Assembly (NCBI GenBank): GCA_023105745.1
Contig: JALGQZ010000001.1
Coordinates: 51,583,662 to 51,647,661, forward strand
DNA: 64,000 nt
Direction of reading: 5' to 3'
Origin: Austropuccinia psidii
Taxonomy: Eukaryota > Basidiomycota > Pucciniomycetes > Pucciniales > Sphaerophragmiaceae
Positions 6,812-27,681 of this stretch are shown here, piece by piece (position 1 is the first letter of the stretch; each line of letters opens with the position of its first letter). A program made the translations under genes and the position numbers. The notes beneath the pieces were generated by a model. The model was given only the letters and a program-made list of their open reading frames with translations, did not search any database and was not told where the DNA came from.

Positions 6812-6814
6812 AGA

Positions 6815-6860
6815 CACCGGGGCGAATCTCGTGTCAATCGTCGGCGATTGACTTCACGTC
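6815..6860 (+). repeat. Left terminal inverted repeat of the DNA transposon
   Basis: Forty-six bases that match the complement of 27633-27678 with two differences (positions 5 and 18 from the end). The repeat contains its own hairpin, TCAATCG-TCGG-CGATTGA at 6834-6851. It begins CACCGGGG directly after the AGA duplication. Confidence 0.93.
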
Positions 6861-6935
6861 AAGCAAACGTCAAGCAGGATAAAAGTCGAGCTCACGTCAA
6901 GCGAAAATCAAGCGAACGTCGAGCACACGTCACAC
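6855..6935 (+). promoter_or_regulatory. Left subterminal repeat array (CGTCAAGC-type)
   Basis: Just inside the terminal repeat, CGTCAAGC occurs at 6857, 6868 and 6894, with variants (ATCAAGC, CGTCGAGC, ACGTCAC) between and after. In plant CACTA elements, short subterminal repeats are the binding sites of the second element protein (TnpA). The matching role here is inference. Confidence 0.6.
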
Positions 6936-7146
6936 TCTGGTCTTACACCAAATCCTGTGACATCCAATAATATTGGTTCCCCTGTGCCTTCAACTCAGAT
7001 TCCTCACCGCCTGATCATCCCACAACCGTCCGATGATTGGTAAAAATTACACCAGACCCGCCTGTTTTCACACACACACATCAAAGATGTCCTTCAGCCA
7101 GTCTTGATGTAGGCGGGGGGTTTGACTTCACCAGGTCATCCATGAA

Positions 7147-7335
7147 GTGTGCGTGTGCATGCGTGGGGGCGGGTGCGTTTGCGTGTGCATTGGCGTGTGC
7201 GGGTGGGTTTGCGTGTGCATTGGCGTGTGCGGGTGGGTGTGCGTGTGCGGGTGCGTGTGCGTGTGCATTGGCGCGTGCTGGTGGGTGTGCGTGTGCGTGT
7301 GCATTGGCGCGTGCGGGTGCACATGCGGGTGTGGG
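7147..7335 (+). repeat. GT-rich minisatellite
   Basis: About 190 bp of imperfect tandem units built on GTGCGTGTGCATTGGC and GTGCGGGTGG. Purine-pyrimidine alternation is nearly continuous. Long frames through it on both strands consist of Cys/Val/Arg or His/Thr repeats and are artefacts. It lies in the 3' flank of the transposase gene. Confidence 0.85.
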
Positions 7336-7598
7336 TACGCAAAAGCCGATTCCGCTTCCAACATGATGATGGCGCAGTTAGAAATCTTGGATGCTGTGAA
7401 AGGTGAGTGTATGGGTCATTTGATCATTGGACTTGGCTTATTCACACTGTACCCAATGTCAAAATAGTAAGTTCTTTGTGGCAATGTGAAATAATGGGCT
7501 TTGCTTGTCACAATGGCATGTCTCTGTCACTAAATTTTGAGGCAATTATTTCACTAGCAAAATTGCTAATGAATCTGAGAGATTTGCATTTTAGTAGA

Positions 7599-10500
7599 CT
7601 AAATATCATGAAATAACGGCTTTATCATTACAAGCAGTCCACATGACAGAGCTTTGTTATCATACAATCCACAGTTACCTTCTATTTCTTCTTCAGATAT
7701 AATCAAGTGTCCATCATCAAAACCAACAGCTTTATAAATATTCAGATGCGGCCAATCTGGTAGGAAATTCACATCAATCTTCAAAGGCTTTAAAATCAGA
7801 AAGTTATTGTTCAGTATGCTAGATGGCTCAGAGACTTTGAAAATGCTATCAATAATACCAAATTGTCGTGAGTTGCCCCTCAGAAAACATATCACACTGT
7901 TGCTGATATTTTTGGATTCAGTTGAAAATATATTGTTCCCAATATTAATGTTTGAAACTGGAAAATACCAAGGTGAGACAATCCTTGAAGTGGGAGGACT
8001 TGTGGATTGCACGGTAGTGTCTAAGCTGATCCAATCAACTATTTCCCTTGTTGCATGAAAAGTCTGTAAGTACTCAACCAGGCAATCATAATTTTGTTGG
8101 TCATGGCGGGATGGCTTGTTATATTTATGGTGATTGAACACGGCAGGTGGCTGTGATTCGAAAAGCTGTTTTATTTCACATGGCACAGATGGGGATTTCA
8201 GGAGAACGGAAAGGTTGGAACATCGACAGATATGTTGAAGTAAGGTTTTATCTATATCATCTATTCAGAGTTGCAAAAAGTTAGTCTTATTCAGTTCAGG
8301 TGTTTAATCAATGTGAATATATTGATCTTATTAATTGACTTACATATCTTGTTATTTGTTGGCATCTTTGCAAATACTCCAATCAAGCGCTCATAACCCC
8401 ATGTGGCTGAGGCTTGTGCTGGGCCCCAACGTTGGAAGAGTTCGGGAATATGATCAGCAAAATGATGATTTGGTTTACTTTTCTGTTTTGGGAACAGGTG
8501 TTGATTGGAAAGGCGGAATTTTTTCCAATGTTCAGCAAATGCAGTCGCATCATCTATTGAAACAGTCCAGCTTGTGGCAATGTTGATAGCACTAATCAAA
8601 TGGAATGTATTCTTGGCTAGTTCATTTGCAAGTTCTTCTGACTGACCCATTTTTCTTTGAGTGTTGGCAGATTGGTGTGCATCTAATGACATCTGTTGAC
8701 TGAGCATTAGAAATGGAATATAGACCTTATATAAGAGAGCCCATTCAGCGGCTTTTAAGCTACCATGAGAGGGGGAACCCATTTTGCGGGGAACTCTTGT
8801 CCATGATGAGGGAATTATGGTCTCAGATATGATTTGTCGGAGATGCTCAAGAGCCTCACCCTTGATCTGGTGATCACTCAGTGCAGTGATATCCAATTCA
8901 GAGGGTATTTCAGAAGTGGGGATGTAATCGGCATCAAATGAAGGAATCTCCGCAGAACCACTAGATGGATGTTCTGTGTTAGGGGTGGGCATTGGGAAGT
9001 AGTTTTTTCGGGTGGAAGTAGTGGGGAGTGGCTCATTTATTATTTTTGCTGCGTCTCTTCTCAGGGAGCGGGCCTCTCTCAATGTGATTTTATCAAGAGA
9101 GCTGTTGGAGGTCATGGAATCTGAGTCTGAACTGTTGGTGTCATTGGATTTCCTGCGGGACCTGAAGTAAATTTTTGATTTCGCCTCTGGAATGCACAAT
9201 TTGAAAGTTGCATGATCCTTCAAAATTCCAAGTATTAAATTATGCATTATGTCAAGATTAACCATTCTGGTTGCATCCCAATACGGAAGGTCTTCCAAAA
9301 TTGAATATCGCACTCCATACTCAGAGAAAATTGCTTGTCTTTGTTGTGGGGTTGCCCGAAGCCATTTGGCAATGGTTGATTTATGACTTTGGTATGAGCG
9401 CGTGTAGTGAAATTGAGGACCAATTTCTTCAATTTGAGCTTTGTGAATGGTGCAAAAATTACAAAAGTGGTTTCCTGAATGGGAAATAAATCCAGTAAGC
9501 TTGCGCATGGCAACCACATCCTCAATGGCTGTGAGGATGGCAACACGGATAAAGGATCCTGATGGACCTGTTGAGGTGGGTGCAAAATGGTAACCTTGCC
9601 ATAGCTCTTTGAGCTCGTTGATGAGTGGCATTAATAGATAATTCAATTGAAGCGCAGTTGGCTCCTTCGGACCAGGGATGATTCCTGCAACATAGACATT
9701 CTCGGGCTTCAATCTTTCACTTGGGGGGAGATTAAGACAAATAAGCATGATAGGTCCAATGCTAGCCAACCGGGTTGACTTTCCATGTGCATTAAACCAG
9801 TCCACATATATGGAGAAGGCCAATGCACCAGGAATGGACATGAATGGGGGGTCATGGATATTTCTAGTGCCAGTGAAGCGTCTCCAGACCAATCCATCCC
9901 AGACGTCACGTTTTGGGGAATCTTCGGGAGTTTGGGATTGTTGATGTTGATGCAGAATGTCCATAATTCCAGCCTGCTGGAGGAATCTGGCAAGCCAATT
10001 TTTGAATGGTTGATAAATGAAATGTTTTGTTGGTATAAATTTTTGCTTCATGTTGGTTGTGTTTTGGGTTTGGGGTTCAGATGAATAGATGAATTTGCCT
10101 AATGATTGTGTGCAAGGGGGATCATGATCATTTGGGTCATTATGGCGTTGACAGTGGGGTTGGTCAGTTGTGACTGATTCAGTAAGGCCATTAAGAGAGA
10201 AACATTGAGGACAACATATATAGTTTTGAATCACTGGCTCCAATTGGAGATGTTCAAATATGGTACTCAGATCTTGAGGTATATGGAATGCAGGAGCGGG
10301 GGGACCAGCTGAGCTTGAGATACTGGACTTGATCAGCAGGTTCAGGGCGGGGTTGAGTATGCGTGAAGCCCTGCGGGGTAAATTATACCTTAATGATAGA
10401 ATGGCAGATATTATCATTCCTAGGTCTTGTGGGGGAAGGGTTTGACTGCCACTATATGGTTTCTGTGCAGTTGAATTGAGACCCGCAGGAGTTGAGAAAG

Positions 10501-10759
10501 TGCTTTGGGTCAAACGTGAATAATCAGCTGGGAAGATTTGATCCAATAGAATTTGTGGGCACCCAGATCCTGATGCAGAAGTAGGGATGTTTGGAAGGGA
10601 TTTGGGTGCAATGGTTGATTTGAGCTTTTTAATGTGCTGTTTATATTGGAAAGGTGTGAAGGCAACTCCTTGCCTATCACCCTCAGGGGAAGAATGTGTT
10701 TGAGTTGAGCAGTGTTGACACATGCATATACGCATTGAGGAATATGGCCGGGTTGTCAT
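7599..10759 (-). CDS. Tnp2-type (Transposase_21-like) CACTA transposase
   Basis: Two exons, 10759-8344 and 8260-7599, joined by an 83-bp intron (GTAAGT...TAG) whose removal keeps frame and gives 1025 aa. The family cuts and pastes the element in the nucleus by binding its ends. The N-terminus has cysteine pairs (CMCQHC at 12-17 and CCPQC at 182-186, with a later PHC), likely zinc binding. The catalytic core is recognisable: IYVDWFNAHGKS (Asp320), then AIEDVVAMRK (Asp414) followed by a HFCNFC knuckle (433-436), then NLDIMHNL (Asp503). These are candidate DDD/E positions; the final acid is not assigned with certainty. The start gives the expected Cys-rich head. It diverges from the gene at 11720 across 960 bp. 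No stop or frameshift is seen, so it may be active. Confidence 0.88.
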
Positions 10760-11719
10760 TGTTGCAGGAATTGGGAGTACGGTTGGTTTGTGTATAAATA
10801 TCTATGGTTGATGTGAAAGTGTTTAGGAGTGTTATTAATTGGAAATAAAATTCAGTGATTATTTATGAAGCGGGAGATGATTTGAGCCAGCTGAGGATTT
10901 TATCCCATTTGTAATGGAGCATGAGCTGCAGTGGATAAAGTTTAACATGTCTCATCTGGATGGCGGAATTGGTTAGGCGTTTAATTGGGTAAAATGCCAT
11001 GCTGCTCAATGCTCATACATATTCTAGTTTATTTACACATTGTGATAGTGCGGGTTTGACCATTGAGGGGGTTCCATTAGTGAAGTGTTACCATTGAATT
11101 GAGGGGATTAACATTTAATCCATGTACGCTGGCACGCCATCGTACATGGTTTAAACCTTATTACAGACATAACTATATAACTCTATTACATAAGGGGTTG
11201 GAGTGCAGCTAAAGTCTTGGTATTTGGTTTGAGTACGGCGGGCTTTGAATCAGTTGGAATGTGATTTGGATTGTCTTGCCTTTCGTGAAAAGGTGATGTC
11301 TCTTTTGTGGGTAAATCCTTCATGAATATACCCCTTTACAGATGTACAATGTTGGGGAATTTCAATGCATATATTGGCAGTTTGGATAATTCACAAAATG
11401 TGACAATGGGGAGGCGGAAATGTTACCAAATATGATTACCTATGGATGATGGGTCCCCTTTCAGATCAAGGAAATATCACATTATATGCTGGTAGGCCGT
11501 GCAGGGTGGTTTCCGACAAAAGCGGAGGAGCTCAAGAGGAGGCAGGGAGGATTCTCCTCAAAAGAGTCTTATCCGACTTCCACACAACACTTAGTTCCAA
11601 CTATTCATAGAATTTCTCTATTCTAAATTTGAAAAGATTTCATCTCATATCACTCTATTTTATCATAATACTGAGGTGTTTTATCTAGTTAAAAATATTA
11701 CTGTACTTTTTCGGCCCTT
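10760..11719. promoter_or_regulatory. Shared divergent promoter region of transposase and second protein
   Basis: No protein-like frame. The two core transposition genes diverge from here, so both promoters must lie within it. A GCTGAG hexamer occurs near 10890, and the palindrome at 11120-11149 lies roughly midway. The stretch before 11720 is AT-rich. No clear TATA box decides either start. Confidence 0.5.
11120..11149. repeat. Intergenic palindrome 1
   Basis: Thirty-base near-perfect inverted repeat with outer arms CCATGTACG and CGTACATGG and inner arms TGGC and GCCA. It is the longest of five related palindromes in the DNA transposon, whose half-site consensus is about TGTACGGTGGCA. Confidence 0.8.
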
Positions 11720-13781
11720 ATGTCATCTTTCAAGTCACATAAATCCCGTTCAGGTTCTGTTCATGACTCAAATAGTGAATCTAGCATAGAATATGTTCAA
11801 ACACAGTCACCATTGAGCCCCAACATTCCTCTCACAACCCCTATCGCATCCTCAATGAATGTATCAGGTCTTAACATTGATGTGGGCAATCCAAAGGCTC
11901 CAACTTCAAGCACTTGGTCGATCCCAAATATTTCCGTCACTCCAATTCCCCCGAATCCCACTAATACACAAATTCATGTGTCTCAGGGGCCAGAAGGCAC
12001 ACCTCAAATCTCCTCACACGCTAATCCCCAATCAAAATTTCCACGTGAGTTCCTCCTTAATCCCGGTCGGAGTCCAGTCGCATCCCAGGATCCCTTTGGC
12101 CAAAGTAAACAGCCAACCCTCAATATTCCATCAGGATCGCAGGTTCATGTGGGTGATGAAAGGCGCGTGGATGGGGGGCGACGAAAAAGACCTTTGGAAA
12201 ATGTAACTTGGAGCGGTCTGTCGGAGGGAAATCCAGTATTGACGCTTCATCAAAGTAAGTCATTTGAATTTTGGAGTAGAAACTTATTCATGATTTGATA
12301 TGTTTGTTTCATGGGTTAGATATGGCACCTAAAGGCAAGTCAGTCCGATCTCAGGAGCCAATTGAAGATCGTGAGGATGACCAGTCTTCATTAATGTTTT
12401 AATGTGTTAACTGATGATTTGCATAGCAGGGGATGAACTTTATGCGTCTTCACCTCTGGTCCATAAAGAGAAAGTCAGTGGACGTCATCATCCATATGCC
12501 TCCAAACCAAGAACGGGTCATGCCAGTACATCAAGAGAAACAATGGTGGATGATGAGGATGAGAACATGTCTCCGACTCAAAGTGAAAGAAATGATGAAC
12601 CAAGGAGGGACAATTTCACAGCGCATGAGCAAGGCACTCAATCAAATAGTGAGTTCACCCATCCTCAGCTGGGCCTCGCCCAGAGTATGCTTGAACAATC
12701 CGAGGTCAGACAGCAAAGGAACCAGGCCCGCAAAGCTCACAATGTGGCAAAACGTGCAAGCCAGAAGGAGCAACAAAAATGGCTGAAGGCAGAACTTCCA
12801 GAGAATGTCCATGGAATGAGATCAGCAGTACACGCACATTGCCTGTTCCTACTCAAAGTTAGGGATAAGGATTTTTCCTCACTACCAACACCACCCAGCA
12901 CAGAAGAGCGTGAAATTGCAATTCAAGTGGCTGGTCATCTCGGTTATGTCCCCGAGGATGTGTTCAATGAGCCATCAACACAGGTTCAGTCTCAGGGTTT
13001 CCAAAGCTACTGCGAAAATGAGCTCCACAAGCTAGGACTAAAGCGATTCACTTGGGACTGGGAGAGCTCATGGCAACATCCGTTCAACGAGCTGATGTCT
13101 ATGGTGTTTTACCGTACATTCCGTCTCGCACTTGTCAGCACTGAGTATCATCACTACTGTTGGAACAAGGATCATAACAACTATGGGGTCGTGGCGGCTT
13201 TAATGGAGCGATATTTCACTTATTTGAAAAGAGAATGGAAGTCTATTCAAAAGGATGCCGAGTATTTGGTAAAAAAGAAAGAGAATCAAAAGCTCGCAAA
13301 GATTCGTCAAAGAGTTAGTTACTGTATCTCTTCTTCATTGTGGACCAAGTCTGATGATGATCTACTTGATTATGTGCAGACCTGTGAGCGCCGTCGTGAA
13401 TGGTGTGATACGGCTAAATTTCCCATCCTAGCATCACAATTCAATGACCCTCGAGTATGCTCAGATACTGAGGAGGTACTGGAAAATGGCCGTCAAGTTT
13501 ACCGCAAAGTGGGATTACGCTGGCGCTCCCAGTTATTTAATGATTTGGTATTGAAAATGGATAGAGACATAGAGTTTTGTAATCGGATTAAAAAAAAGGG
13601 TAAAAAAACTATTGATAGATTGCCAGAATTACGATCGACAGATGATGGTGATATTCCGGAAGGCCTATCATTTCAGGTATTTGATCAAGATTGGCTCAAA
13701 GGCTGTAGTAAGATGCAGACTAGCGCCCTCAAGATACTTGACATGCCAGTTATTAGGCCTAATGGTGATGCTCTGCAATAA
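11720..13781 (+). CDS. Putative CACTA second protein (TnpA-like position), 645 aa
   Basis: Three exons, 11720-12254, 12320-12370 and 12430-13781, with GTAAGT and GTGAGG donors; joining them preserves frame and gives 645 aa. Residues 1-150 are Ser/Pro/Thr-rich and probably disordered, followed by a basic RRKRP cluster (154-158) suitable as a nuclear signal. The middle has a strongly charged, probably helical stretch (QQRNQARKAHN). The C-terminal 400 residues are a conserved-looking globular region rich in Trp, Tyr and charged residues (ELHKLGLKRF, TWDWESSWQHP). I do not recognise a named domain. Its position, divergent from the transposase and next to it, is that of the DNA-binding second protein of CACTA elements. 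That role is inferred from context only. Exon 2 is short, and its limits are the least certain part. Confidence 0.72.
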
Positions 13782-14087
13782 CTTAGTAATTGGTCACGGT
13801 ATAGCACTGTGACAAATTAAAATTTTGTGAATTATTTGTGCAGGTGTAATAAAATCTGATTATTATCTCTTAAGGATGCAACAACTTGCTAAATATGTTA
13901 GAATATAGACAATATGAATTGAAATGTATCACCGTCTCCCTTGCAATAATACTCTATTGCTCATTTTCATTGAGGAAATATTGAAGAAGTTTGATCCAGC
14001 TCATGGTGTTCATAATTGTGGACCTGTGCCAGAGTCAACAGGAGTTATCAACTTTGTCAATCACAAATTATATAATATCAGTAAGGC
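13782..14087. other. Gap between convergent genes
   Basis: About 300 AT-rich bases between the stop of the 645-aa protein and the stop of the SNF2 gene, which face each other. I see only the two 3' flanks; no gene or strong hairpin. Confidence 0.5.
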
Positions 14088-16520
14088 TCACGCAGTTAAT
14101 GATTTTTTCTTTTCTTGGACCTATTGGTAATTGGAATATGGCATTCCCATAAGGAATGATTTCAGAATAGTAATACAATCAAGTAAAAGATGAGCTTGAA
14201 AGGTACCTTCCGCATGTTGACCTCAACTGAATGAGGAGTGATATAGTGGATGACCTGTACAGGTCGTTGTTGGCCAATACGATGTAGACGATCAACAGCC
14301 TGAGCCTCAATGGCTGGGTTCCAATTGGGCTCCTGGAAATGTGGATGTCAGGGTCCGAAAATCAGGGGAGAATTTTGGGGGGCCCCTCACCATTAAATAG
14401 ACTACATTAGCACAAGTTATATTGAGGCCAGTTCCAGCCGCGGCAATGGATGCAATGAGTACTTCACATTCAGGATTATTGAAGAAATTCTCAAGCGCCT
14501 TGTCCTGCGCTCGTGGTGTAATTGTTCCATCAATTCGTGCTGAAAGGATAGAGTGATGGGCAAGAGCAATACCAATTCTACAATATAAAAAAGTCAGATG
14601 GAGTCAATTGGTAATGGATGCATATTAGAATTAACGCACAAATCTAGAAATTGGGTCCATTGGGTATAAACCACCGATTTCGTTGGACCACACCTTGTTT
14701 GTTTGTTCTTCATTAAGCTTTGTAGGAGGTGTGCAATTTTACTACTCATCATGCATGTTTCCACATCCACAATAGTTCGTGTGATTCTTGGGGAGTTATC
14801 CTGAGTGCTCCTGCCCTCGGGGTCTTCCAGCTCCGCCTCCGCAATTGTGTTAAGCATGATGTGATGGTTACAACATATTCGCAGCTTATTAATATTTCTG
14901 AAAAACTCTCCTGGTCCTTTGCTTTTGGATGATAGGAATTCTTCATATAATGTGGAATATTCTTGCTGCATGGTCGGGTTGAGTGGGAGCAGCTCATAAT
15001 GATGGCTAATAGTGGGGAGAGATTCGAGATGTGTGGTTTTGGTGCGGCGCAAACTTAAATGCCGCAATGCCAAATGCAAAATATCATTGCAACCTTTTGA
15101 AAGACTACTCAGGATGAATGGTGACCAGTTATCTTGATCGGCGCTCTGGGGTTGAGTGATGAAGGATATTATGCCCAAAAGGTCATAAATGGTGTTGTGA
15201 ATAGGTGTGCCCGTTAAACATATTCGACGGGATGAAAGGAGGCTATTAATGGCACGGTGAGTGGCAGTGTATTGAGAGCGAATATAGCTATAAGAGGGGG
15301 CAAGGGTTATTGGATATAAAAGGTAATTTGAATCATTTAAGCTCAGCCACTCACTGTGCTTCATCCAAGATTATACGATGCCAATTGATTTGAAAAATGA
15401 ATGATGTAGAGGGATTGGTTTGCTTAAATTCTTGGGTGATAGTATTGTAAGAAGTGATGATGATATCATATTTTAAGATGTCGGCTTGGGATAATGAGTG
15501 ACGAGTGGGACCATGGTAGATTTTGGCATGCAGTGCTCCAGCCTGAGCATGCTTGGATATTTCTGATTGCCAGTTGGTAATTAAGCGAGGGGGGCAGATG
15601 ATCATGGTGGGCGTGGAGCGATGGGGGTTTGCAATCATCCGCTCCTTGGAGGTACCAATTAGAGCAATGGCCTGAATGGTTTTACCTAATCCCATATCAT
15701 CCGCAAGCAGTCCTCCAAGAGGGGTATTGGTCGAAAGGGATTCAAATGAGCTAACGACCTTGTTTGTAATGATGTGCCTGGCATTAAAAGTGGATCCTGG
15801 GGGTGAGGTTGCCCAAAGGTTACGGGCTGATTGGCCATTGGGGATTTCTCGATCCCAGAGAAAAGCTAGTCCGGTCTTTTGATGAGGGAGGAGGGGGGTT
15901 TGAATAATGGCATGGGGCGGGGTCATCATGGGGAGGTCTGATCCACTGGGTAATTGTATCAGTTTTTGCTTGGAAATCAATGATGAAACAGCAGGATATG
16001 AAGCAGGCGTCGAGTTTGAAGCGGGAAATGTCGGAGTAAAGAGTTGACATTGACAATGAGTAGTACAGTCATATTCTTTGGGCATTTTAAGCTTGAAATC
16101 TTGTGTTCGAAAGCTTTCCATTATGAATAGAACGTTTGGATACCATGTGAAGAACATCAATGCTAAATTGGGTTTCTGAGATGAGGAGGGATCATTGGCA
16201 TCAGTCATAAATACTCCCTCAACGAATAATATTTGAGTAGGATTGGATTGGCAATTTTCAATCCATGCCCCACCAGGACCACAGTGCATGAACGTTTTGG
16301 GTGCCCCAAGGAATGGTATCAACGTTTGGGAAAGGGTTCCCGGGAGAGAGCCAATAGCATGCTGGTGATTGGGGAGATATACGAATATGTTGTGTTGATT
16401 GTGCCATAGGATAATCCAAGAACCTAAGTGGGAATTCTCAGGCTTTAAGGTTATATCACTATTTATTTGAATACGAATATTAATCATCCCAATGCAAAGT
16501 GGTTGTGAAGGGGTTGACAT
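14088..16520 (-). CDS. SNF2-family DNA-dependent ATPase, 719 aa
   Basis: Five exons (16520-15355, 15287-14640, 14577-14391, 14332-14207, 14120-14088); the four small introns, 58-86 bp, join in frame to 719 aa. The ATPase motifs are complete: GGLLADDMGLGKT (Walker A Lys280), LDEAH (386-389, the His codon split by intron 1), LTGTPIHN, VVYTQWTQFLDL, IAAAGTGLNIT and QAVDRLHRIGQQRP. The family uses ATP to translocate on DNA and remodel chromatin or protein-DNA complexes. The motif style resembles the Rad5/Rad16 branch, but I see no RING finger between the two lobes, so it is not a typical Rad5 or Rad16. About 200 N-terminal residues have no recognised domain. Carriage inside a DNA transposon is unusual. 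The gene looks intact. Confidence 0.88.
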
Positions 16521-18223
16521 GATGGCTATTTTGAATTATTTGGGGACAGTTGGGAATTATATGATCGGGAAGGGTTAGCTAAAGGGAATGAAGAGGAATA
16601 AGCGCAGGTGGGGAACTTATATGAGTGGCAGCAACAGGCCAAAAGGGGGATGGCCTGTGGTTACGTGCATGGTCTTGATGGAGGTGGGCCTCTTGGGCTC
16701 ATAATTTTCATATCCGGTTTGGGGCATATATCAAGGCAAGGTGGCCAAAATGTGGGTGCACCATTTGACTGCTGGATCTGCAGCGAGTTACGAAACCTTT
16801 GGTGGAACAAGGCTGACATTAGCACATCCGAAATTGGGTGGGTTGTAGCAGCTTATTGTGGAGGGCATATTAGAGGCATGCAGTCATGTTCGCTGGTGTG
16901 ACAGCGAACAATGAGCGTATCCTCCCCAGGTTAATTATTCACAGGGACCTACTGGGCAATGTTGGCAGTTTCAAAGGGCAATCTCACTGTGGGGATGTTT
17001 GTGTGTGGGCGGGTGAGATATGTTCGGTGGCATGCCACCAAACATGACTTTGGTTTGGCCTGAAGTTTTTTGCTGACTGATGCATACTGGGCGTTCAGGG
17101 GGGAATGTCTGGGATGATCAAAGGGGGCGCCAGCCGTGAGCCATGATCCACATATACATTCACCCCTATGGCGTTTGAGGCGAGTACTAATCCACCGAGA
17201 TTGGCATTGGCCTCTTTGCCTCACGCGCGTACAGAACTCCGGAGAAAGAGGCCACACGCCCGAGGAATTTTTTGGCTGCAAGCCAGGTGCCACAACTTGC
17301 GCGGGGCGTGTGAGAACGTGAAGAAAATGACCCGCGGTGGGAGATACCCACGCGAACATGACCAGCCTCAGCAATCATAGGCTGGGATTGTTATTCTAAT
17401 GTGGATGAGGCTGAAGCGAATCCACACTGATTGGCCTCAGGTTTCCACGCGCAAGCGGGTGAGCGTCTGCAGTCAAGCTGCCAACCCGACCAAGAAAATA
17501 GGCAGCTGGAAGACTGGCAGTGAAATGTCTTCCAGGCGTGTGAAAGTTGCCTGTGTATGACCCATCGGGGGTGCGTATGAAAGCGTGTGGCTGCCCGACA
17601 ATGAACAAGCGGGCCAGTCATTGTTTGCCCCAACAATGGCACCGGAGTGAATCAACTCTTTGTGTTAGACCCAAATATTAAGTCATCCCATTAAGACCCA
17701 CTTACATTAATTTGGATTACATGCGCATCTGTGCCGTAGTTAGGCAGAGCTGTCCAACAAGGTGCATCAAAGGGATGCAGGTGAGAGATATGACTCGATG
17801 GCTTGACGTTATTGCATGTTACATTGTTGAACAGCTTTTTGCTCTGCCCCGCAGTACATTTACAAAGGTGTACTGCGTACTACAGTGTCGACTGTACTGT
17901 ACAGATCAGGAAGGTGTAATACTACTTGAGCCTGCATCCATCTAGCAAATGTGCATGCACCTTCCGATCGTTTGCATTTACGTAGCTCATGTGCCACATG
18001 CTCAGCATTGCGTTTCACCCGATTTGCACACGCAAGCTGAGCATGTCATGGTCAAACGCACCGTGAGAAAGTGCTCAGTAAAGCCATGGAATGAACTCTT
18101 TTGCAATAGTTCATTGGAAGGCTCAGTTTGGAGCACTTCACCAAAGCGTGTGAAATGCTGCACCTGGCTGAAATGTCATCCGATGCTGTGCCAAATGCTC
18201 AGAGTGCGCGCATACAAAAACGA
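16521..18223. other. Long intergenic region without recognised gene
   Basis: About 1.7 kb of moderate GC content. Open frames are short, overlap on both strands and look non-protein-like. It holds palindrome 2 (17020-17045). From about 17990 onward, copies of GCTGAG/CTCAGC and TGCTCAG become frequent. The promoter of the SNF2 gene should lie in its first few hundred bases. Confidence 0.5.
17020..17045. repeat. Intergenic palindrome 2
   Basis: Twenty-six bases with arms ATGTTCGGTGGCA and its complement, one mismatched pair. Same core (GGTGGCATGCCACC) as the other palindromes. It lies 500 bp upstream of the SNF2 start. Confidence 0.8.
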
Positions 18224-19136
18224 CTGAGCAATGGCTCAGCATGGTGCATTTGATATTGTTATATCTATAGTTCAATCACTGTGCAATTCCAATGTTCAGC
18301 CACTGAGCATTTCAATTATGACCCGAAAGCAAACCTGAGCAATGGGTCGAGGCAAGCTCACGCTGTATTCACTTGTCTTACAGCCCCCCCCTTTGTTCAC
18401 ATACTATTACCAGGCCATATGGCCGGTAATCTCGCCGCGGTCACTTGTGACCAAATGCACCGGGTGCTTTTCTGCATGGGTCACTTGTGCATTGCACCCC
18501 CAATGCACATTCAACATGGGCCTCACGACCACCCTCCTGGGTGATCGGGTGACTATTTAAGGAAACAAAGGGGATGTGACTGAGCTTGACAATTCAATAA
18601 ATTGCAATACTCAGCGGTGCATTTGATATTGTTATATCAATTGTTCAATTACTGTGCAATTAAAATGTTCAGCCACTGAGCATTTCAATTATGACCCGAA
18701 AGCAAACCTGAGCAATGGGTCGAGGCAAGCTCACGCTGTATTCACTTGTCTTACAGCCCCCCCCTTTGTTCAAAGACTATCACCAGGCCATAAGGCCGGT
18801 GATCTTGCCGCGGTCACTTGTGCATTGCACCCACAATGCACAATCAATAAGGGCCTCACGACCACCCTCCTGGGTGATCGGGTGGCAATTTAAGGAAACA
18901 AAGGGGATTTGACTCAGCATGACAATTCAATAAATTGCAATACTCAGCTTGACAATTCAATAAATTGAAATACTCAGCCAGACCCCCATTGTTCTTCTGC
19001 CTCACGCGAGCATTTCACTTCTCAGTTGCAGCATTCGCTGAGACTCAGCTTCAATTTTGCCCACACGCCTTGAAGCTGAGACTTTTGCGGGTGCTGCAAC
19101 TGCTGAGATCGTCTCAGCTTCCCCTTGGTATAAAAG
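18224..19136 (+). promoter_or_regulatory. GCTGAG-palindrome cluster and TATA box upstream of the Zn-cluster gene
   Basis: Three inverted repeats of one hexamer occur: CTGAGC-AATG-GCTCAG at 18224-18239, GCTGAG-A-CTCAGC at 19037-19049 and GCTGAGA-TCG-TCTCAGC at 19102-19118, with many single copies between. The last lies about 10 bp before a TATA box (TATAAAAG, 19129-19136). A pyrimidine-rich leader follows, and a TTTTAG directly precedes the ATG at 19560, so a leader intron is possible. The palindromes look like operators; Zn(II)2Cys6 proteins commonly bind inverted repeats, so self-regulation by the next gene is a plausible guess. Confidence 0.6.
18244..18962 (+). repeat. Tandem duplication, period about 373 bp
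   Basis: A unit starting GTGCATTTGATATTG at 18244 recurs at 18617. Both copies share TTCAGCCACTGAGCATTTC, a run of cytosines, and an end with GACAATTCAATAAATTG, which is itself repeated again near 18950. The first copy has an extra piece of about 40 bp near 18450. Frames in both copies translate to the same peptide, but this follows from the duplication and is not evidence for a gene. Confidence 0.85.
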
Positions 19137-19559: not shown

Positions 19560-20935
19560 ATGTCGTGCACGTTATGCACCAAGCGGGGTATCCCCTGCAT
19601 TCGCTCCTCGACGACGAACGACGCTTGTGATGCTTGCCGACAAGCACACAAGAAATGTTCGTTCGTTGTCCGCCCCTTCCGCCCACGAGGCCAGATGAGT
19701 TCTCGCCCAAGACGCCCTCGCGAGGACTCCTTTGTGGTCGACGATGATGAAACCATTTCCGAGCGTGAATGGACGCCAGGCCCCCAAACAGGCCAACGGG
19801 AACGATTCCGGACGATTAGCCCTGTCCCCTCCAGTATCGATTTGTCCACTCCCCCTCCTAGGCCACCATCCGATGGTCACTTCACTCCTCGACCGGAGCG
19901 AAGTGATTATCCGGCCGATGAAGGATGGCGATGGCGAGAGGACATTCGAGCTTGGGCTGATCGTCACCATGTCTTGTCACCGATGGGATTCAAACGCCAA
20001 AGTAAGTTTTATTTCTCCTCTTTATCTCATTTCTCTTCACGCAATAATACTGACTTTTTTCCATTACTCATAGAACCAAACCCCCCGAATCCCCCCCGAC
20101 ACGACTCTCCCGTTCCCAGTTTGCCTCGCGAGCAAACCCCCCGGCAACCCACTCCAGGCCCGAGTGGCACCCGATGGTCTGAGGAATTATTCCGTGGTAA
20201 GCAGCCAAAGTTTCATTTCATTTTCACTTTCACTTTCGAGTCGAGTGAACTGACTCTTACTCCTTTTTTAGAACCCTCCCGAACCGAAGAGCCACCTATT
20301 CCTGGCCCGAGTCCATCGTCCCAACCACCTGAGGACGATACGACTCGTGAGCCAGAACCTGAGGTGGCTCCTACGCAATCCACGGAGGAACCTTATGGTA
20401 AGTCACCCCTTCTTTCTCTTCGATCCATATTCACCTTTCCTCATTTTTTCTTCGACCGTCTCCAGATCGTCCCGCCACTCCTCGCTCAATCATCATCATC
20501 GACGATACGCCCGTGGGATCACCCCATCCCCCTCCCCCTCCCCCTCCCCCTTCTTCTTCACCGACTCCACCATCTTCCCCTTCCACTCCAACCCCGGTTC
20601 CCTCCCCAGAGATCCCTTCCAGTGCCCCCGAGAACCCCAACGCCTCCTCCCCCCCGGTGCCAAGCTCGTCTCATTCTCACGATGACGCTCGCCAGGAATT
20701 CACCGACCTGCGACCGACCCTAATGATTCCTCGAGCCATCGTCCACGATTCGATCAACCGAATCTTGTTGGAGCATCGTCGCTTGCTCCACATGATTCCT
20801 TTCGTGGATGCAACTCATCGAAATGAGATGCACCGGGAATTCCGGGAGGAACTAAACTCCCTCCTTGGCAAGGCAATGGAGGCTTATCCAAAGGAGGACA
20901 TCACCGGGATAGTCTCGAAATACTTAGAAAAATAA
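19560..20935 (+). CDS. Zn(II)2Cys6-pattern protein with SUMO-interaction-like motifs, 386 aa
   Basis: Four exons (19560-20001, 20074-20196, 20272-20397, 20466-20935) with clean GTAAG donors join in frame to 386 aa. Cysteines 3, 6, 13, 23, 26 and 33 fit C-x2-C-x6-C-x9-C-x2-C-x6-C, the fungal binuclear zinc cluster that binds DNA. Two hydrophobic-acidic stretches resemble SUMO-interaction motifs: SFVVDDDE (57-64) and SIIIIDD (238-244). The middle is Pro/Ser-rich and acidic, with a polyproline run, and probably disordered. The last 80 residues form a predicted helical domain (HDSINRILLEHRRLLHMIPF) of unknown function. It may be a transcription regulator of the element or a chromatin adaptor. The cluster has fewer basic residues between cysteines 2 and 3 than classical factors. 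The start is well placed after TTTTAG. Confidence 0.75.
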
Positions 20936-21370
20936 AAAAATTTAAAAAAAAATCATTATTTCCTCTATTTATTATTTGTAATACTTTCTTTCATATAAAT
21001 TTTTTGTATTGAATGATTGTTATTTTCCATTTCTATTACATTCTTTGCTCACGTTAAGTTATATTTTGTTCAATGGTTCAAATATCCTATTGCATGAGAA
21101 ACCGTTTTATAAGTGCCCTACCAAAGGTTTGAGTGAGTATTTGTTTGTGTGACCCTCTTTTTCTCAAAATGCCCCAATAGTTGCCGTTATCCTCTCCTAT
21201 ATTTTCTTCTCCCATGGTTTAGAGCCATACCCATTCTTAACTGTAAAAAAGCGGGAGGTTCCCGTATGTGAGCAATCGAGTCCAGATTCGTGAAACATGG
21301 CCTTTCCTATGGTCACACGCTATTAGTCTTACTCATGTATTGAATTGTTTAAATTGGCTAGAACCTTCAC
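20936..21370. other. 3' flank of the Zn-cluster gene
   Basis: AT-rich sequence starting with adenine runs directly after the stop codon (20936-20960), probably the 3' untranslated region and polyadenylation zone. No gene seen. Confidence 0.5.
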
Positions 21371-21910
21371 AAGCGTAAGGATTGGCGTGTGACTTGTCGG
21401 GAGGCTGCACAGGCGTAAGGATTGGCGTGTGAATTGTTGGGAGCCTGCACAGGCATAAGGATTGGCGTGTGAATTGTTGGGAGCCTGCACAGGCATAAGG
21501 ATTGGCGTGTGAATTGTTGGGAGCCTGCACAGGCGTAAGAATTTGTCAGCATTGCTGGCAACCCTCCCATGCGTAAGGATTGGCGTGTGAATCGTCGGAA
21601 GCCTGTACAGGCGTAAGGAATTTTAGCACTTTTGGGACCCTCCCCAAGCATAAGGATTAGCGTGTGAATTGTTGGGAGCCTGCACAGGCGTAAGAATTGG
21701 CGTGTGAATTCTTGGGATCCTGCACAGGCTAAAGAAAATTTCAGCATTGTGGGGAAGCTTCACAAGCGTAAGAATTGGCGTGTGAATCGTCGAAAGCCTG
21801 TAAAGGCGTAAGGATTGGCGTGTAAACTTTCGGGAGCCTGCACAGGCATAAGGATTGGCGTGTGTAGCGATGGCCCCCCGCATAGGCGTAAGGAACTTTT
21901 AGCATTGTCA
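21371..21910 (-). repeat. Minisatellite with 40-bp units
   Basis: Units of about 40 bp built on GCGTAAGGATTGGCGTGTGA and GAGCCTGCACAGGC start at 21377, 21417, 21457, 21497 and 21537. They continue, more diverged and with short spacers, to about 21910. Open frames on the minus strand through it (SHANPYACAG repeats) result from a period that is not a multiple of three combined with absence of stops; I do not treat them as a gene. The array ends about 70 bp before palindrome 3. Confidence 0.88.
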
Positions 21911-21981
21911 GAACCTGCACAAGCATGAGGATTCGCGTGTGAAGCATTGGCATCCTGGACAATAGCAACAAACCAGGACCG

Positions 21982-22007
21982 ATGTACGATGGCATGCCAC
22001 CGTACAT
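21982..22007. repeat. Intergenic palindrome 3
   Basis: Arms ATGTACG and CGTACAT around a TGGCATGCCA core. It sits between the 40-bp minisatellite and the 3' end of the Tet-like gene. Confidence 0.82.
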
Positions 22008-22131
22008 AATCCACTTCACCCCTTTTTCATGTGAGACACCCCATCTCCCGCACTCGAATCCATCCAATCCTGGTGTATATTGTCCTCTGCCTTACCTCAC
22101 CATTACTTACCCAACCCACTTGCAAATCTCC

Positions 22132-23343
22132 TCATTCTTTGAATCGGCATGAGATTGTATTACCATCCCTGATTTGATAGCCCGCTCTCTCGCCAATCTC
22201 ATAATAGCCATTGCTTTTTTGCCGCATTGTTTTTGCTAACCTGCTTGAGCATTGTGCGGACATACCCACTAGTGTCGTGCTTTCGTTGTCCTGTGCTGGA
22301 TCAGTATAATGAACAAATGTACTACTGGCCCACACTACCTGAATGAGCCCATGACATGTGGATAGATCAATCCAAAAATGCTCATTTGGGAAAATCAATT
22401 TTCCCCCTGTACACCGCTTTGACGCATCTCTTTGAATTTGGCCGGTCCGCTTATCAGCTTGAAACCACCATCCCGAAGCATACAGCGATGCATCCTTATC
22501 AACATGAGGTGCGTTTTTGAATCCATTCATGGTGAAAGTGAGTGCGGAAGCGAACTCGAATGCACCCTGATTTGCCGGAATATCGCCTTCATAGTTGACT
22601 TGATCAAAAGACGGAACCCCCAATGAGTTGTAGCAATTTTGAATCTTCTGAAATAAATTATCCCCAACATATCGTAAGGATTGACCTAGAATGCGACCCA
22701 CCGAGCTAAGATTGGCACCTCGGTCCCGCCATTCATCTTTTGCATTTTCAATTTTGCCAGCACTACCATACAGACCAAATTGTTCATTCTTCGTGGTGCA
22801 TTTGCGCCACCCAATCGCGAACATAAATCCCTCCAGTAATGCTCCATTTGTTGCAATAGGGTCAGTGAACCTCTTTTCGCGAAATAAGAATTGTGATAAT
22901 TCATCCCATTGATTGACCTCGACTTCACTCATTGTTGTGAATGGTCGGAATTCAACAAGGGCAATGAGTAATCCGGTTGAAGAGAAAATTGCCACACGGC
23001 CAAAGTGAATGCGTTTGATCTGATTGACATCCACAACCCTCCGAATTTCACTTGGGGTGATATTTGCTGATACTGGCATTGATATTTGTGCTGTTGGGCG
23101 AGAGGAGGAAAAAAACCTATTCATTCGGGTCGTTTTGCGCTCATTTGTCTTTTGGGATCTGCTACTATTCCCGAGTGGTTGCGGGATCACTATGTGTTGA
23201 AGCACACAAGATATCAGATACTGCCAAGGAGCTTTCTTCGGCACACATCCTTTGACTTCCCTGTTGGAGCCCACATGACATTGGCACAATCTGAACCGAC
23301 TAAAGCCCATGTTCTTCAGTGGGGCCCAATGAGGGTGCCACAT
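22132..23343 (-). CDS. Tet/JBP-like 2-oxoglutarate Fe(II) dioxygenase
   Basis: One uninterrupted frame of 403 codons; the conserved part starts near residue 95, so the true start could be Met74 (about 23124) or an upstream exon. The segment RIHFGRVAIFSSTGLLIALV is characteristic of the Tet-like oxygenases expanded in rust fungi. The double-stranded beta-helix has the iron ligands in APHVDKDAS (His280, Asp282) and FVHYT (His345), with a candidate 2-oxoglutarate Arg at 368 (SSRLA). GWWFQAD and GGKLIFP are typical of the family. Relatives oxidise 5-methylcytosine or thymine in DNA; which base this one uses cannot be read from sequence. The product would act in the nucleus. It has no recognised DNA-binding extension. 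All metal ligands are present, so it is probably active. Confidence 0.85.
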   Translation of the reverse strand: MWHPHWAPLKNMGFSRFRLCQCHVGSNREVKGCVPKKAPWQYLISCVLQHIVIPQPLGNSSRSQKTNERKTTRMNRFFSSSRPTAQISMPVSANITPSEIRRVVDVNQIKRIHFGRVAIFSSTGLLIALVEFRPFTTMSEVEVNQWDELSQFLFREKRFTDPIATNGALLEGFMFAIGWRKCTTKNEQFGLYGSAGKIENAKDEWRDRGANLSSVGRILGQSLRYVGDNLFQKIQNCYNSLGVPSFDQVNYEGDIPANQGAFEFASALTFTMNGFKNAPHVDKDASLYASGWWFQADKRTGQIQRDASKRCTGGKLIFPNEHFWIDLSTCHGLIQVVWASSTFVHYTDPAQDNESTTLVGMSAQCSSRLAKTMRQKSNGYYEIGERAGYQIRDGNTISCRFKE

Positions 23344-24053
23344 AAATGTGGAAGCATATATATATATCTATATATATACACTGAGATTAAGCGAGTAACT
23401 CACACTTTCCTTCCTCAGCCCGACGCTTTCTCGCGAGTTCCCTTTTACGCTCTTTTCCTTTTTTCGTGAATGGCATGCTTTCAGCAGAAAATGAAATGAA
23501 ACCGAATGATTACTGATTTCTTAATATCACCTAAATTGGATTGCGATGGATGAATCTTTTTTAATTGCGGCTAAAAAGAAAGCTCACGCCTGACCTTGGC
23601 AAATTCACGATCTCAAATACCTGAACCTGAAAATTGCAGTGGATAGTGCATTATTCAATTTTACACATTGATGTTCCCATGCAATCACTTTCCAATCCAG
23701 CAATTTGGAATATTGCAAGCACACGCAAATGCAATATGCATCCTGCTGCGGATCCCTAGTTATCCCACTCCTCTTGAAAGACACAGGAACCTTTTGCCTA
23801 TTATGGGCTGGCGGGAAGTGATAAACGCGACTTCCCGCAATGCCCCCGCATGTGCTACTCGCGGGCAAAATGCCTGACTCAGCTTGCGTCTTGTCGGAGT
23901 CTTTGCAATGATGTACGGAGGCATGCCGCCGTACAGTTACTATTGGTACTCAGACTGTGGCATCCGGGCAGTAGTAGGATAGGAAGTCATGATTATTAAA
24001 TTCATAAATCACTTTGCAAAATTAAATTACAATCTATCTAGTACAAAGCTAAT
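23344..24053. other. Intergenic region between Tet-like gene and orphan gene
   Basis: About 700 bp containing a TA dinucleotide run at about 23354-23380 near the start of the Tet-like gene, a CTCAGC hexamer near 23878 and palindrome 4. It should hold the Tet-like promoter and the orphan gene's 3' end. No further gene is supported. Confidence 0.5.
23912..23935. repeat. Intergenic palindrome 4
   Basis: Arms TGTACGG and CCGTACA around a GGCATGCC core, 24 bases with one mismatched pair. Lies between the Tet-like gene start and the orphan gene end. Confidence 0.82.
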
Positions 24054-26295
24054 CTAAAACGGGTCAATCCTGGTTGTGAGTTTAGCTGACCTGGGTACCG
24101 TCAAGGTGACCTCATCACTTGAACCAAGCCCGCGATTTGCCACCCAGGCATCACCAAAGTCTAATACTAAGCATCGTGCAAAATCAAATCTAAGAGGTAC
24201 AGTGGGGTTAAAAGACTCTGATGAGAAGAAACTTTTATTCAGTAAATTACATATATACTTATTAGTACGTAGCCACACTGGCTCCACTAGATTTTTACCC
24301 TCTGAAAGTTTTGCGGAAATGTCAATTAGTGCTAAAGCCCCTTTAACTGAGCTTGTTCTCCAGTCATCTGAGCATACCATCAAACCACGAACCCCCGCCG
24401 CACAGAATGCCGCTAATATACCATAGCAAATTCGATTGATTCCAAGATTCTTGTGACACGCCAAAAGATCTTTGATGGCCTCATTTTTTTTTGAGTTTGT
24501 GAGTTTGCCTTTGATGCCATTAACTTCGACCTTTGTATGTGCACGTACCATGTTGTATGCAATCATCAAATGGATAACTGTATCCATTAGATCCTCCAGG
24601 TTCTTGTGCGGCTTTGTGGATATCTCATTGTCAGCCCCGCCACCTTCAATGCTGAGTTGGGTTGCACGTTGCTTCGATTTACTCAAGCAGGAGGCAAGGT
24701 ATTCAACTGCTCCCCGTTCGAGTCCAAGAGGATCGGTTGAATTTGATGTTGGTGCAACATATGGTTTGGGTGCAATCACATCGTATGAGACTAAACTAAT
24801 GGATTCAAACATAACATTTGCCCAAAAATGTTTAACTGGATTGGCGGGGTAAAGAAGGCTCTGAACCATTTTGAAGAAGGAGTGTTCAGATTTTGCGAGA
24901 TTATCTGGAGGTTTAGCTGATTCCTTCATCAATTTGAGATTCCAAATGTTGTGATCAAAAAACGCTTCTGTTTCGGTTGGCTTAAAAAAATCTAACCCTG
25001 TATATTGCAATTTATATCACCAGTCAACAGCCAATAATCAAGTATCATGCACAAAGATAAAAAAAAACTCACCTGCCATCTCAAGGTCCTGCAGCCAAGC
25101 CGACATTTTAAGATCTCGGTTACTGATCACCTTAATACCAACGGGCAGGAATGTATGAGCATCCTTTGTTGGTAAATTGTCCCATCTATTTTTGTAAATC
25201 CTATTGATATTATCAAGCCCCCTTTTCCATGATTGTTGAGTAATATTGGAATGATAATTCAAAACGCCTGCAAACTCTTCCATGCGGGATAAAAATATTC
25301 CTTGAAAATTTGCAGCGGATGACACTTCGGGCTCAGCGTCGGGAATTATATCAGTCATATCTCGTCCCATTGTATCATGTTTAATTGTTTCCCTTTCTTG
25401 AAAGGCTTGAATATTCCGAGGAGAGGCGGGAGGGGTTGCATCATGCATTGTTTCATTGGGTATCGGGGGACTTTCAGTATGTGGAGCTTCATCATGGATT
25501 GTTTCATTGAGTATTGGGGGGGGTTCAGTATGCGGAGGTTCATTATCAATATGGTCCCCTTCAACATTGATAATTTCATCACCTTGATCGCGAGAATCGT
25601 TTGCGGCTTCAAAGGTACGGCGTTTTTTGTTTGTTTTTTTGGTCGCATGTATATTTGGTCTTTTTCCTAATCCTTTGCCTGGAAATCCAATTACGACTCG
25701 AGATCCTTCAGGTAGAGATTCTCCCACCTCCACACCTGCCCATATATTGTAAGCAGCTATTTTTATCAATTTTGTTTTGAATTAGTAATGGACTTACGGT
25801 TCAAATCCATTTTGAGCAGGCTCATGGCTTCAGCAATCTTTTGACGCACATAATCAGGAATTTTACTATCATTTTGGATTTTTTCGAGCCTTGGGATTGT
25901 TTGAGCAATGTTGGAGACAAATTGTTCCTTGGATATAATTTCCACCTCCCCACTGAAAATTACATCATTTTGCCCATCATCTTCTGTCGGTGCACAAGGT
26001 TCAACAGTCTTTTCCTTCTCATAACTTTTAAAATTCGGTTTCTGAGAGCTTGGAGGCTGCCCTGAAATAAAGGCTATGACACAATATCAGGTTTTGAGAG
26101 ATTTGAAATATTAAAGATGGATGCATACTCACATTCCGGAAGAACTGGTGGATCTTGATTATCTTCATGTGACTGGCTCTCTACTTCAATGCCTAATTCA
26201 CGACTACTGGCGATATCAGAGATTTCACTTCCACTCTCTGGGGCTGAAGTTGGTCGTTCATTGAATTCTGTTGAATTTCCCGGGGTTCGGGCCAT
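24054..26295 (-). CDS. Orphan protein of the DNA transposon, about 684 aa
   Basis: Four exons (26295-26133, 26061-25798, 25756-25073, 24997-24054) join in frame to about 684 aa. Intron 2 would be only 41 bp with this acceptor; an alternative AG 18 bp downstream is also in frame. The N-terminal half is acidic and Ser/Pro-rich, with a KKTNKKRR basic cluster and a tandem 17-residue repeat (PHTEPPPILNETIHD, then PHTESPPIPNETMHD). The C-terminal 400 residues look globular and helical (ISLVSYDVIAPKPYV, CYGILAAFCAAGVRG), with no motif I recognise. It could be an element-encoded accessory or a captured host gene. The frame is free of stops over 2 kb, which supports a real gene. No function is assigned. 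Confidence 0.7.
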
Positions 26296-26769
26296 AGCGG
26301 AGGTAGTTTATTAAGCAAATAGATGGTGACGAGTTGATTGCTAACTTGTTTGAAAATTTTTTGATAAAAGATCCAAATTCAAGAAAAAAGGTGCAAATGC
26401 GATTTGTCGGGAAATTGAAGGAGGCGATGTTTTGCAAATTATTTCATATCATGCAAATGAAATCACTTCCCTGTGAGACATTGAATAAAGTTGACTAGTG
26501 AGAAACCTACTAAAGTCAACTTTTGAACTATTCAATGCTCATGAGGTAAGGACTAAGCAAAGTGTTCATTTGATTGATATGAAATAAAATGGTTTTGTCG
26601 GCGAAACAGGAGACACAATTCTTGTCTTAAATAGTCCACTTATTAGGTTTTAATTTGTGAGTCTCATGATTTAAACCCTAGCCACAACATTGTGAATATA
26701 CTGACCAATTTCCCCTGAGGTCCTGTTGGCAGAGAAGGCCACTCAGCATATTTCGGCGATGGCGTCCAT
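26296..26769. other. Upstream region of the orphan gene
   Basis: About 470 bp, AT-rich, without protein-like frames. It should include the orphan promoter. A short inverted pair (AAAGTTGACTAGTG... and ...TAAAGTCAACTTT) around 26490-26523 can form a hairpin. Confidence 0.45.
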
Positions 26770-26797
26770 TGTGTACGCCAACAAGCCACCGTACACA
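26770..26797. repeat. Intergenic palindrome 5 (degenerate)
   Basis: Arms TGTGTACG and CGTACACA match the other palindromes, but the core (CCAACAAGCCAC) is no longer symmetric. It lies about 20 bp before the 84-bp minisatellite. Confidence 0.65.
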
Positions 26798-26814
26798 CTA
26801 TGGATGTAGTACGG

Positions 26815-27340
26815 AAGCTTAAGGATGGTAAGCGTTGTCGGAGGCATGTCGGGAGGGCACTACATGAGCGTAAGGATGGTAAGCAGTGTCGGGAGAATGT
26901 CGGGAGGGAGGGTAACTGTTGTCGGAGGCATGTCGGGAGGGCACTACATGAGCGTAAGGATGGTAAGCAGTGTCGGGAGAATGTCGGGAGGGAGGGTAAC
27001 TGTTGTCGGAGGCATGTCGGGAGGGCACTACATGAGCGTAAGGATGGTAAGCAGTGTCGGGAGAATGTTGGGAGGGAGGGTAACTGTTGTCGGAGGCATG
27101 TCGGGAGGGAACTACATGAGCGTAAGGATGGTAAGCAGTGTCGGGAGAATGTCGGGAGGGAGGGTAACTGTTGTCGGAGGCATGTCGGGAGGGCACTACA
27201 TGAGCGTAAGGATGGTAAGCTGTGTCGGAGGCATGTCGGGAGGGCACTACACAAGCGTAAGGGTCATCAGTGGTGTCGGAGGCATGTCGGGAGGGTATTA
27301 CACAAGCGTGAGGATGGTAGGGGCGGGGGTGTGAAAGCGT
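26815..27340 (+). repeat. Minisatellite with 84-bp units
   Basis: AAGGATGG recurs at 26872, 26956, 27040, 27124 and 27208, an exact 84-bp period, with shorter variant units at each end (first at 26821). Each unit contains GCGTAAGGATGGTAAGC, GTCGGAGGCATGTCGGGAGG and a related GTCGGGAGAATGTCGGGAGG, so it is itself a double 42-bp unit. Because 84 is a multiple of three, all frames stay open in both directions; there is no other evidence of coding. Confidence 0.92.
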
Positions 27341-27479
27341 AAGGAGTGGTGAGGACGGAGAGGGGCGGGCAGTGTCGGAGTCTCATCCGGATGGAGGGCG
27401 GTGCGGGTGCGTAAGCATGCTAAGCGTCGGGGAGGCGGAAGCCAATGAGGTGAAATTACACGAACGTTGCGCATAGTGT

Positions 27480-27632
27480 TGAAATGGGTTTGGGCTTTGA
27501 GTGACATTCTCATGTGACACATGTGAGACGATTGACGTTGTCTTGACGCTGACGTGACGTGACCCACTAAATCCAGTGACTATAAAGTGACACTAACGCG
27601 ACTGAAGCAAGATTTTATACTGACCGCGGTGC
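27480..27632 (-). promoter_or_regulatory. Right subterminal region of the DNA transposon
   Basis: Next to the right terminal repeat, short TTGACG/GACGTGA motifs recur (for example around 27529-27563). They are the reverse of the CGTCAA/ACGTCA motif at the left end, although less regular. The likely role is recognition by an element-encoded protein. Confidence 0.5.
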
Positions 27633-27678
27633 GACGTGAAGTCAATCGCCGACGATTGACGCGAGATTCGCCCTGGTG
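27633..27678 (-). repeat. Right terminal inverted repeat of the DNA transposon
   Basis: Complementary to 6815-6860 with two differences, and including the same internal hairpin. The AGA duplication follows directly at 27679-27681. Confidence 0.93.
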
Positions 27679-27681
27679 AGA

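Follow-up and report, generated by a model that had tools for sequence, protein, structure and literature searches.

Background

Fungal transposons are known to carry Tet genes, whose role is unproved, and how transposons persist in methylating, mutating genomes is an open question. Several described systems can be set beside the 20,864-bp element reported here, which lies in a 64,000-nucleotide stretch of the genome of the rust fungus Austropuccinia psidii (assembly GCA_023105745.1, contig JALGQZ010000001.1, positions 51,583,662 to 51,647,661; hereafter the window). Spm/En of maize is a CACTA element with subterminal repeats and a second protein, TnpA, and the VANDAL transposons are Mutator-like. 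In work from 2014, Iyer is said to have described TET-carrying Kyakuja/Dileera/Zisupton elements, fungal DNA transposons with a Tet/JBP gene.

In the sections of PMC10398659 that concern them, TnpA of Spm/En is tied to methylation loss, and VANDAL of Arabidopsis is a DNA transposon encoding its own anti-silencing factor, VANC, which targets non-coding tandem-repeat regions; both proteins are precedents for anti-silencing encoded by a transposon. For rusts, the accessible text of Kojima 2025 (PMC12730594) describes TET-carrying EnSpm families in Puccinia striiformis that end in CAC..GTG and make 3-bp duplications, and related EnSpm families in six other species including A. psidii, in a sentence that leaves their TET status unstated. 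The same text gives four clusters of transposon-derived Austropuccinia TET genes and proposes that such genes counter methylation. In A. psidii, CACTA ranks second in abundance among transposon types, according to a genome paper on the species.

We read the element as a young, probably autonomous EnSpm/CACTA transposon whose Tet-like dioxygenase (TET) and SNF2 ATPase would counter silencing by methylation. Taken whole, this reading appears to us probable, with real room for error; its first part, an inserted EnSpm-type element, we regard as close to certain.

Results

The element occupies positions 6815-27678 as one insertion within a decayed Ty3/gypsy retrotransposon. A repeat search of the window gave terminal inverted repeats (TIRs) of 46 bp that match at 44 positions (96% complementary), and the two mismatches, G/A and T/C, are both transitions at CpG. 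The ends read CAC..GTG and are bounded on both sides by a 3-bp target-site duplication, AGA, as in EnSpm/CACTA elements. When the flanks are joined with a single AGA, a Ty3/gypsy frame is open across the site; it runs for about 60 codons past the junction to a stop inside the retrotransposon that is part of the latter's own decay. A preliminary description of this DNA had claimed exact borders, and TIRs, duplication and restored frame do coincide to the base; these borders establish past mobility. Within the window no paralogous empty site was found, the joined flanks matching only a 79-nt stretch, and no element sequence recurs in the flanks at E 1e-5. A hairpin at the left end was considered and discarded, its folding being no better than that of shuffled sequences (z -1.18).

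The Pfam model Transposase_21 (PF02992) matches the open frame 8291-10801 with 57.5 bits against a cut-off of 28.6 (E 1.4e-15), which marks a tnp2-type DDE transposase as found in EnSpm/CACTA. In an alignment of 24 of the 30 hits, with the D residues assigned by eye, the candidate catalytic residues are kept in 20 of 21 (D320), 16 of 19 (D414) and 9 of 9 (E790) rows with a letter, and a C(2)C motif stands between the second D and the last E (C433 in 21 of 23 such rows, C436 in 19 of 21). The best hits, and 18 of the 30 listed, come from A. psidii strain MF-1; full-length relatives in Phakopsora pachyrhizi (47% identity) and Puccinia graminis (42%) indicate that the family is common to rusts. 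Membership in Plavaka was rejected: PF18759 scores 24.7 bits against a cut-off of 26.3 in the window transposase, DUF1258 is likewise just below its own, and the ends are CAC..GTG rather than TGT..ACA or CATCA..TGATG; two MF-1 relatives (P0244, P0251) bear a precomputed Plavaka label. Membership in KDZ (Dileera and others) was also set aside, the duplication being of 3 bp and not 8 bp and a KDZ match being absent from the Pfam scan.

Six predicted gene models lie inside the element (Table 1). All are stop-free, and the 14 introns of five of them, 58-86 nt long, are all GT..AG, which bears out, for predicted models, the earlier statement that six genes have clean introns and no disabling mutation; the pol frames of the flanking retrotransposons are in pieces. 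On the minus strand, in the direction of reading, stand F, TET, SNF2 and the transposase, and on the plus strand B and a possible zinc-cluster gene (Zn). The large protein database was searched with TET, SNF2 and the transposase. The best hits of all three are MF-1 proteins, from which the source is most probably A. psidii or a very near relative; that the window proteins differ from those of MF-1 is what one copy out of a multicopy family would show.

Two of the cargo identities proposed in the preliminary description, the Tet-like dioxygenase and the SNF2 ATPase, hold. The model 2OG-FeII_Oxy_6 matches the open frame 22132-23367 with 161 bits against a cut-off of 27 (E 4.7e-47), and this Tet-like 2OG-Fe(II) domain has its HxD motif at H207/D209. 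A candidate basic first exon lies near 23475-23404, the placement of the start being uncertain. Identity to MF-1 proteins reaches 96% over 80% of the query, and the best 120 of 194 hits are all from MF-1; no sequence match in the PDB was found up to E 10. The spliced SNF2 model contains both helicase lobes (SNF2-rel_dom, 1.2e-53; Helicase_C, 6.6e-16), and its best solved relative is yeast Rad5 (6l8n, E 7.3e-58). The Pfam scan of the spliced model gave no match to a RING between the lobes, as in RAD5 and HLTF, and the protein is therefore called Rad5/TTF2-like only. Its first nine database hits are MF-1 proteins of 75-85% identity, followed by an ascomycete protein at 34%, and among the best 120 of 4707 hits, some of them nameless, no row is named for another rust. 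This drop suggests that SNF2, unlike the transposase, was gained in the A. psidii lineage, and with at least nine MF-1 relatives it is by its matches a multicopy family itself.

The third proposed identity, that of Zn, is weak. The Zn2Cys6 model Zn_clus (PF00172) gives 13.9 bits against a cut-off of 21 (E 0.062), and the assignment depends on a spacing seen by eye, C-x2-C-x6-C-x9-C-x2-C-x6-C, whose two cysteine halves stand in what we take to be the reverse of the usual Zn2Cys6 order. B and F are called orphans in the sense of having no Pfam, NCBIfam or PDB match: B gave none of weight in any of the three, and the exons of F none credible in the PDB or NCBIfam, a BimA match to one F exon (E 0.099) being taken as low complexity. 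The third exon of B, modelled alone, reached a pLDDT of 39.7, too poor for a fold search.

The observed/expected (o/e) ratio of CpG is 0.66 in the element against 0.12 and 0.11 in the two flanks, and the TCG/CGA value 0.64 against 0.05 and 0.06. In 250-bp steps across the borders, CpG o/e passes from 0.09 to 1.26 on the left and from 1.40 to 0.36 on the right. Coding constraint alone does not suffice as an explanation, since non-coding parts are also high (0.63 upstream of Zn and 1.01 at the right end). Depletion is uneven by gene, CpG o/e being 0.37 over the transposase gene (7599-10759) against 1.03 over Zn (19560-20935), and TCG/CGA 0.22 against 1.90.

The repeat search also revealed a family of 26-nt near-palindromes. 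With up to three mismatches, TGTACGNNGGCATGCCNNCGTACA occurs five times in the window, each time inside the element, against an expectation of 0.00 from 100 shuffles. The pattern TGTWCG-N12-CGWACA has five exact sites and one with a single mismatch; all six lie in the element, and the 43 kb of flank contain no such site. When the element was shuffled in 50-nt blocks, these sites averaged 0.17 and never exceeded 2. All of these figures are descriptive, as the pattern was derived from the sites themselves. Five of the six copies stand 364-574 bp before gene starts, if the upstream exon of TET is real, and no copy precedes the start of Zn. Three MF-1 models (P0019, P0045, P0103) start at an ATG with codons for MPLYT, MPLYT and MPPYT, consistent with the right half of the palindrome copy upstream of TET; at least that half seems to be kept in other copies. 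Together with the tandem arrays, the palindrome is a candidate target for an element-encoded protein. The flanking retrotransposons bear other palindromes than those of the element.

The window was compared with the 270 database proteins retrieved, and MF-1 contigs were compared through the best 120 of 194 TET hits, 9 SNF2 tags and 18 transposase tags, short gene models being excluded. Two MF-1 models (P0080, P0093) are fusions with F at the start and TET at the end, and the three models just named run from the F-TET spacer into TET. A further seven of the 120 TET models listed (P0013, P0024, P0047, P0051, P0058, P0100, P0104) run on from TET into sequence like the array at 21.3-22.0 kb. These fusions and run-ons argue that F, TET and the array belong together in other copies.

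Table 1. Features of the inserted element, in window coordinates
Feature	Position	Strand	Basis or remark
Left target-site duplication AGA	6812-6814		joined-flank frame check
Left TIR, 46 bp, begins CACCGGGG	6815-6860	+	repeat search
Subterminal direct repeats, ~11-bp units, ACGTCAAGC-like	6854-6935	+	repeat search
GT-rich tandem repeats near left end	7147-7338		repeat search
Transposase gene, 1025 aa, exons 10759-8344, 8260-7599	7599-10759	-	Pfam Transposase_21 (tnp2)
Palindrome copy	11123-11146		364 bp before transposase start, 574 bp before B start
Orphan gene B, 645 aa, exons 11720-12254, 12320-12370, 12430-13781	11720-13781	+	open frames, spliced model
SNF2 ATPase gene, 741 aa, exons 16520-15355, 15287-14640, 14577-14391, 14332-14207, 14120-14092, 14023-13954	13954-16520	-	Pfam scan of spliced model
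Palindrome copy	16887-16910		367 bp before SNF2 start
Palindrome copy, one mismatch	17021-17044		501 bp before SNF2 start
Tandem duplication, non-coding	18243-18978		repeat search
Possible zinc-cluster gene, 386 aa, exons 19560-20001, 20074-20196, 20272-20397, 20466-20935	19560-20935	+	Zn_clus sub-threshold
Tandem array, ~40-bp units, downstream of TET	21357-21972		repeat search
Palindrome copy adjoining ~40-bp array	21983-22006		precedes no gene start
Tet-like dioxygenase gene (PU type by host), 330 aa, one open exon	22132-23124	-	2OG-FeII_Oxy_6
Palindrome copy	23912-23935		437 bp before possible TET exon 1, 788 bp before 330-aa start
Orphan gene F, 677 aa, exons 26295-26133, 26061-25798, 25735-25073, 24997-24054	24054-26295	-	open frames, spliced model
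Tandem array, 84-bp units, near right end	26739-27326		repeat search
Palindrome copy	26772-26795		477 bp before F start
Right TIR, 46 bp, ends CCCTGGTG	27633-27678	-	repeat search
Right target-site duplication AGA	27679-27681		joined-flank frame check

The two tandem arrays are not one repeat, sharing only a 13-nt match. Outside the element, the segments 28678-29773 and 55855-56924, 86-90% alike, mark a further copy of the gypsy element that was interrupted, one that ends short of the insertion site. The flanking retrotransposons contain repeated blocks with GGCCCAATTGGGCC palindromes at 30.9-31.5, 41.1-42.3, 44.5-45.7 and 58.6-59.8 kb, seemingly their long terminal repeats, and positions 52001-56000 have 28% G+C, far lower than the surroundings.

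Discussion

In our view, the window records the relatively recent arrival of a large EnSpm/CACTA element, probably an autonomous one, in a decayed Ty3/gypsy element. By its family membership, the tnp2-type DDE transposase would move the DNA bounded by the CAC..GTG ends by cut and paste, probably with the aid of a protein, B or F being candidates, that binds the subterminal repeats. The Tet-like enzyme would oxidise 5-methylcytosine and the SNF2 ATPase would open nucleosomes; jointly, they might keep the promoters and ends of the element open to expression where the host uses CpG methylation to silence transposons. More tentatively, the palindrome may be the site of one element-encoded DNA-binding protein, serving either joint regulation of the genes or the aiming of TET and SNF2 at the element. 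The preliminary description had suggested a self-contained mobile unit that may manage its own chromatin state: the large CACTA-like unit stands, whereas with the chromatin role the genes, motifs, CpG content and palindrome are consistent.

Several observations weigh against this reading. No second whole copy was seen in the window. Among the MF-1 contigs listed, SNF2 shares none with the transposase or TET, and among the listed tags no two of the three share a contig, which is weak evidence against linkage on contigs mostly shorter than 15 kb. One MF-1 protein (P0018, O181_024241) has 31 residues identical to the N-terminus of the transposase and then TET at 78% identity, the reverse of the gene order in the window, with an odd mix of identities; it may represent a rearranged copy, neighbouring elements or an error of gene prediction. 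CpG depletion within the element is strongest in the transposase gene, and the preserved CpG may reflect youth and nothing else, with protection by TET as a further possibility. In the best 120 of 194 TET rows, H207 is kept in 114 and D209 in 110, little above a median column of 90%, which makes their conservation weak evidence of selection, and the TET structure model, from a 29-row alignment, reached a pLDDT of 35.3, too poor for a fold search. Finally, motif VI at the C-terminus of SNF2 hinges on the proposed splicing of intron 3: in four MF-1 relatives (P0121, P0123, P0128, P0129) this intron is read through to a stop, with a C-terminus of ...LEPSH or a near variant, and the motif VI arginine has a letter in none of the aligned MF-1 SNF2 rows. 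We take the intron as real because the spliced continuation resembles what we take to be the usual SNF2 motif VI and lies within the Helicase_C match at residues 588-687.

The alternative that survives best, possible though on balance unlikely, is that the SNF2 and zinc-cluster genes are passengers, captured by chance or via nested elements and useless to the transposon, and that CpG content reports youth only. In the A. psidii transposon sections of PMC12774611 and PMC8063080, transposons are methylated, CpG is lost by deamination of methylcytosine and younger transposons are generally richer in CpG; youth is thus enough to explain the preserved CpG. The Zn block (~17.0-22.0 kb) fits such a history, with tandem repeats of its own, a CpG o/e of 1.03, a TCG/CGA of 1.90 and no palindrome upstream of the Zn start, as does the absence of an SNF2-transposase join from the MF-1 contigs listed. 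It is harder to reconcile with the palindrome, which stands upstream of SNF2 and B as it does of the transposase and F, with the multicopy state of SNF2, and with six models that have all stayed free of stops.

The anti-silencing reading also has a stronger form, which we consider rather doubtful, in which an element-encoded protein on the palindromes would recruit the Tet-like oxidase and the SNF2 remodeller that the element encodes to the element alone. Methylation would then be erased and chromatin opened on the element only, so that it would stay rich in CpG and active while the genome around it is methylated and decays. If true, demethylase, remodeller and target sites would be combined in one mobile unit.

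Improbable, in our estimate, is a composite of nested or fused elements, with the outer ends taken from a smaller TET-carrying EnSpm element and SNF2-B from another. The internal tandem arrays do resemble those near the ends, palindromes adjoin arrays at 21983 and 26772, and P0018 shows a different gene order; yet the repeat search found, inside the element, no pair of inverted repeats resembling the outer ends, those ends and the AGA duplication enclose all 20,864 bp, and the palindromes are common to both halves. The borders in practice refute the idea that a cluster of host genes or an assembly artefact is bounded by inverted repeats through chance, as the single copy seen might allow: the ends, the duplication and the restored frame agree to the nucleotide, composition shifts on both sides and known EnSpm features are present.

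A Tet-like enzyme, an SNF2 remodeller and a repeated palindrome on one element offer a concrete, testable case of whether a transposon can carry a complete anti-methylation kit that acts on itself only. The element also hints at where a rust of gigabase genome size may obtain chromatin genes specific to its lineage.

Comparison with known systems

The Kyakuja/Dileera/Zisupton elements, reportedly also fungal DNA transposons with a Tet/JBP gene, differ from the present element in their transposase family, and the duplications of Dileera are said to be of 8 bp. Spm/En is likewise a CACTA element with subterminal repeats; unlike the element described here, it carries no TET or SNF2 gene, and none of the searches made here found similarity to TnpA. 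VANDAL, as treated in the pertinent section of PMC10398659, has one anti-silencing protein and neither a dioxygenase nor an ATPase.

As a difference from the TET-carrying EnSpm elements of Kojima 2025, SNF2 has no occurrence in the main text of PMC12730594, and an SNF2 gene in a TET-carrying EnSpm element was not found in the openly licensed literature searched. TET-carrying EnSpm elements of rusts having already been published, the class of element is known, and part of the self-managing idea is therefore not new. Judged by the accessible text of PMC12730594, the likeness extends to the CAC..GTG ends, the 3-bp duplication, an EnSpm-type transposase near Plavaka and a Tet/JBP-like gene, and the present family may be among the A. 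psidii families of its Table S1, where gene contents and lengths are given.

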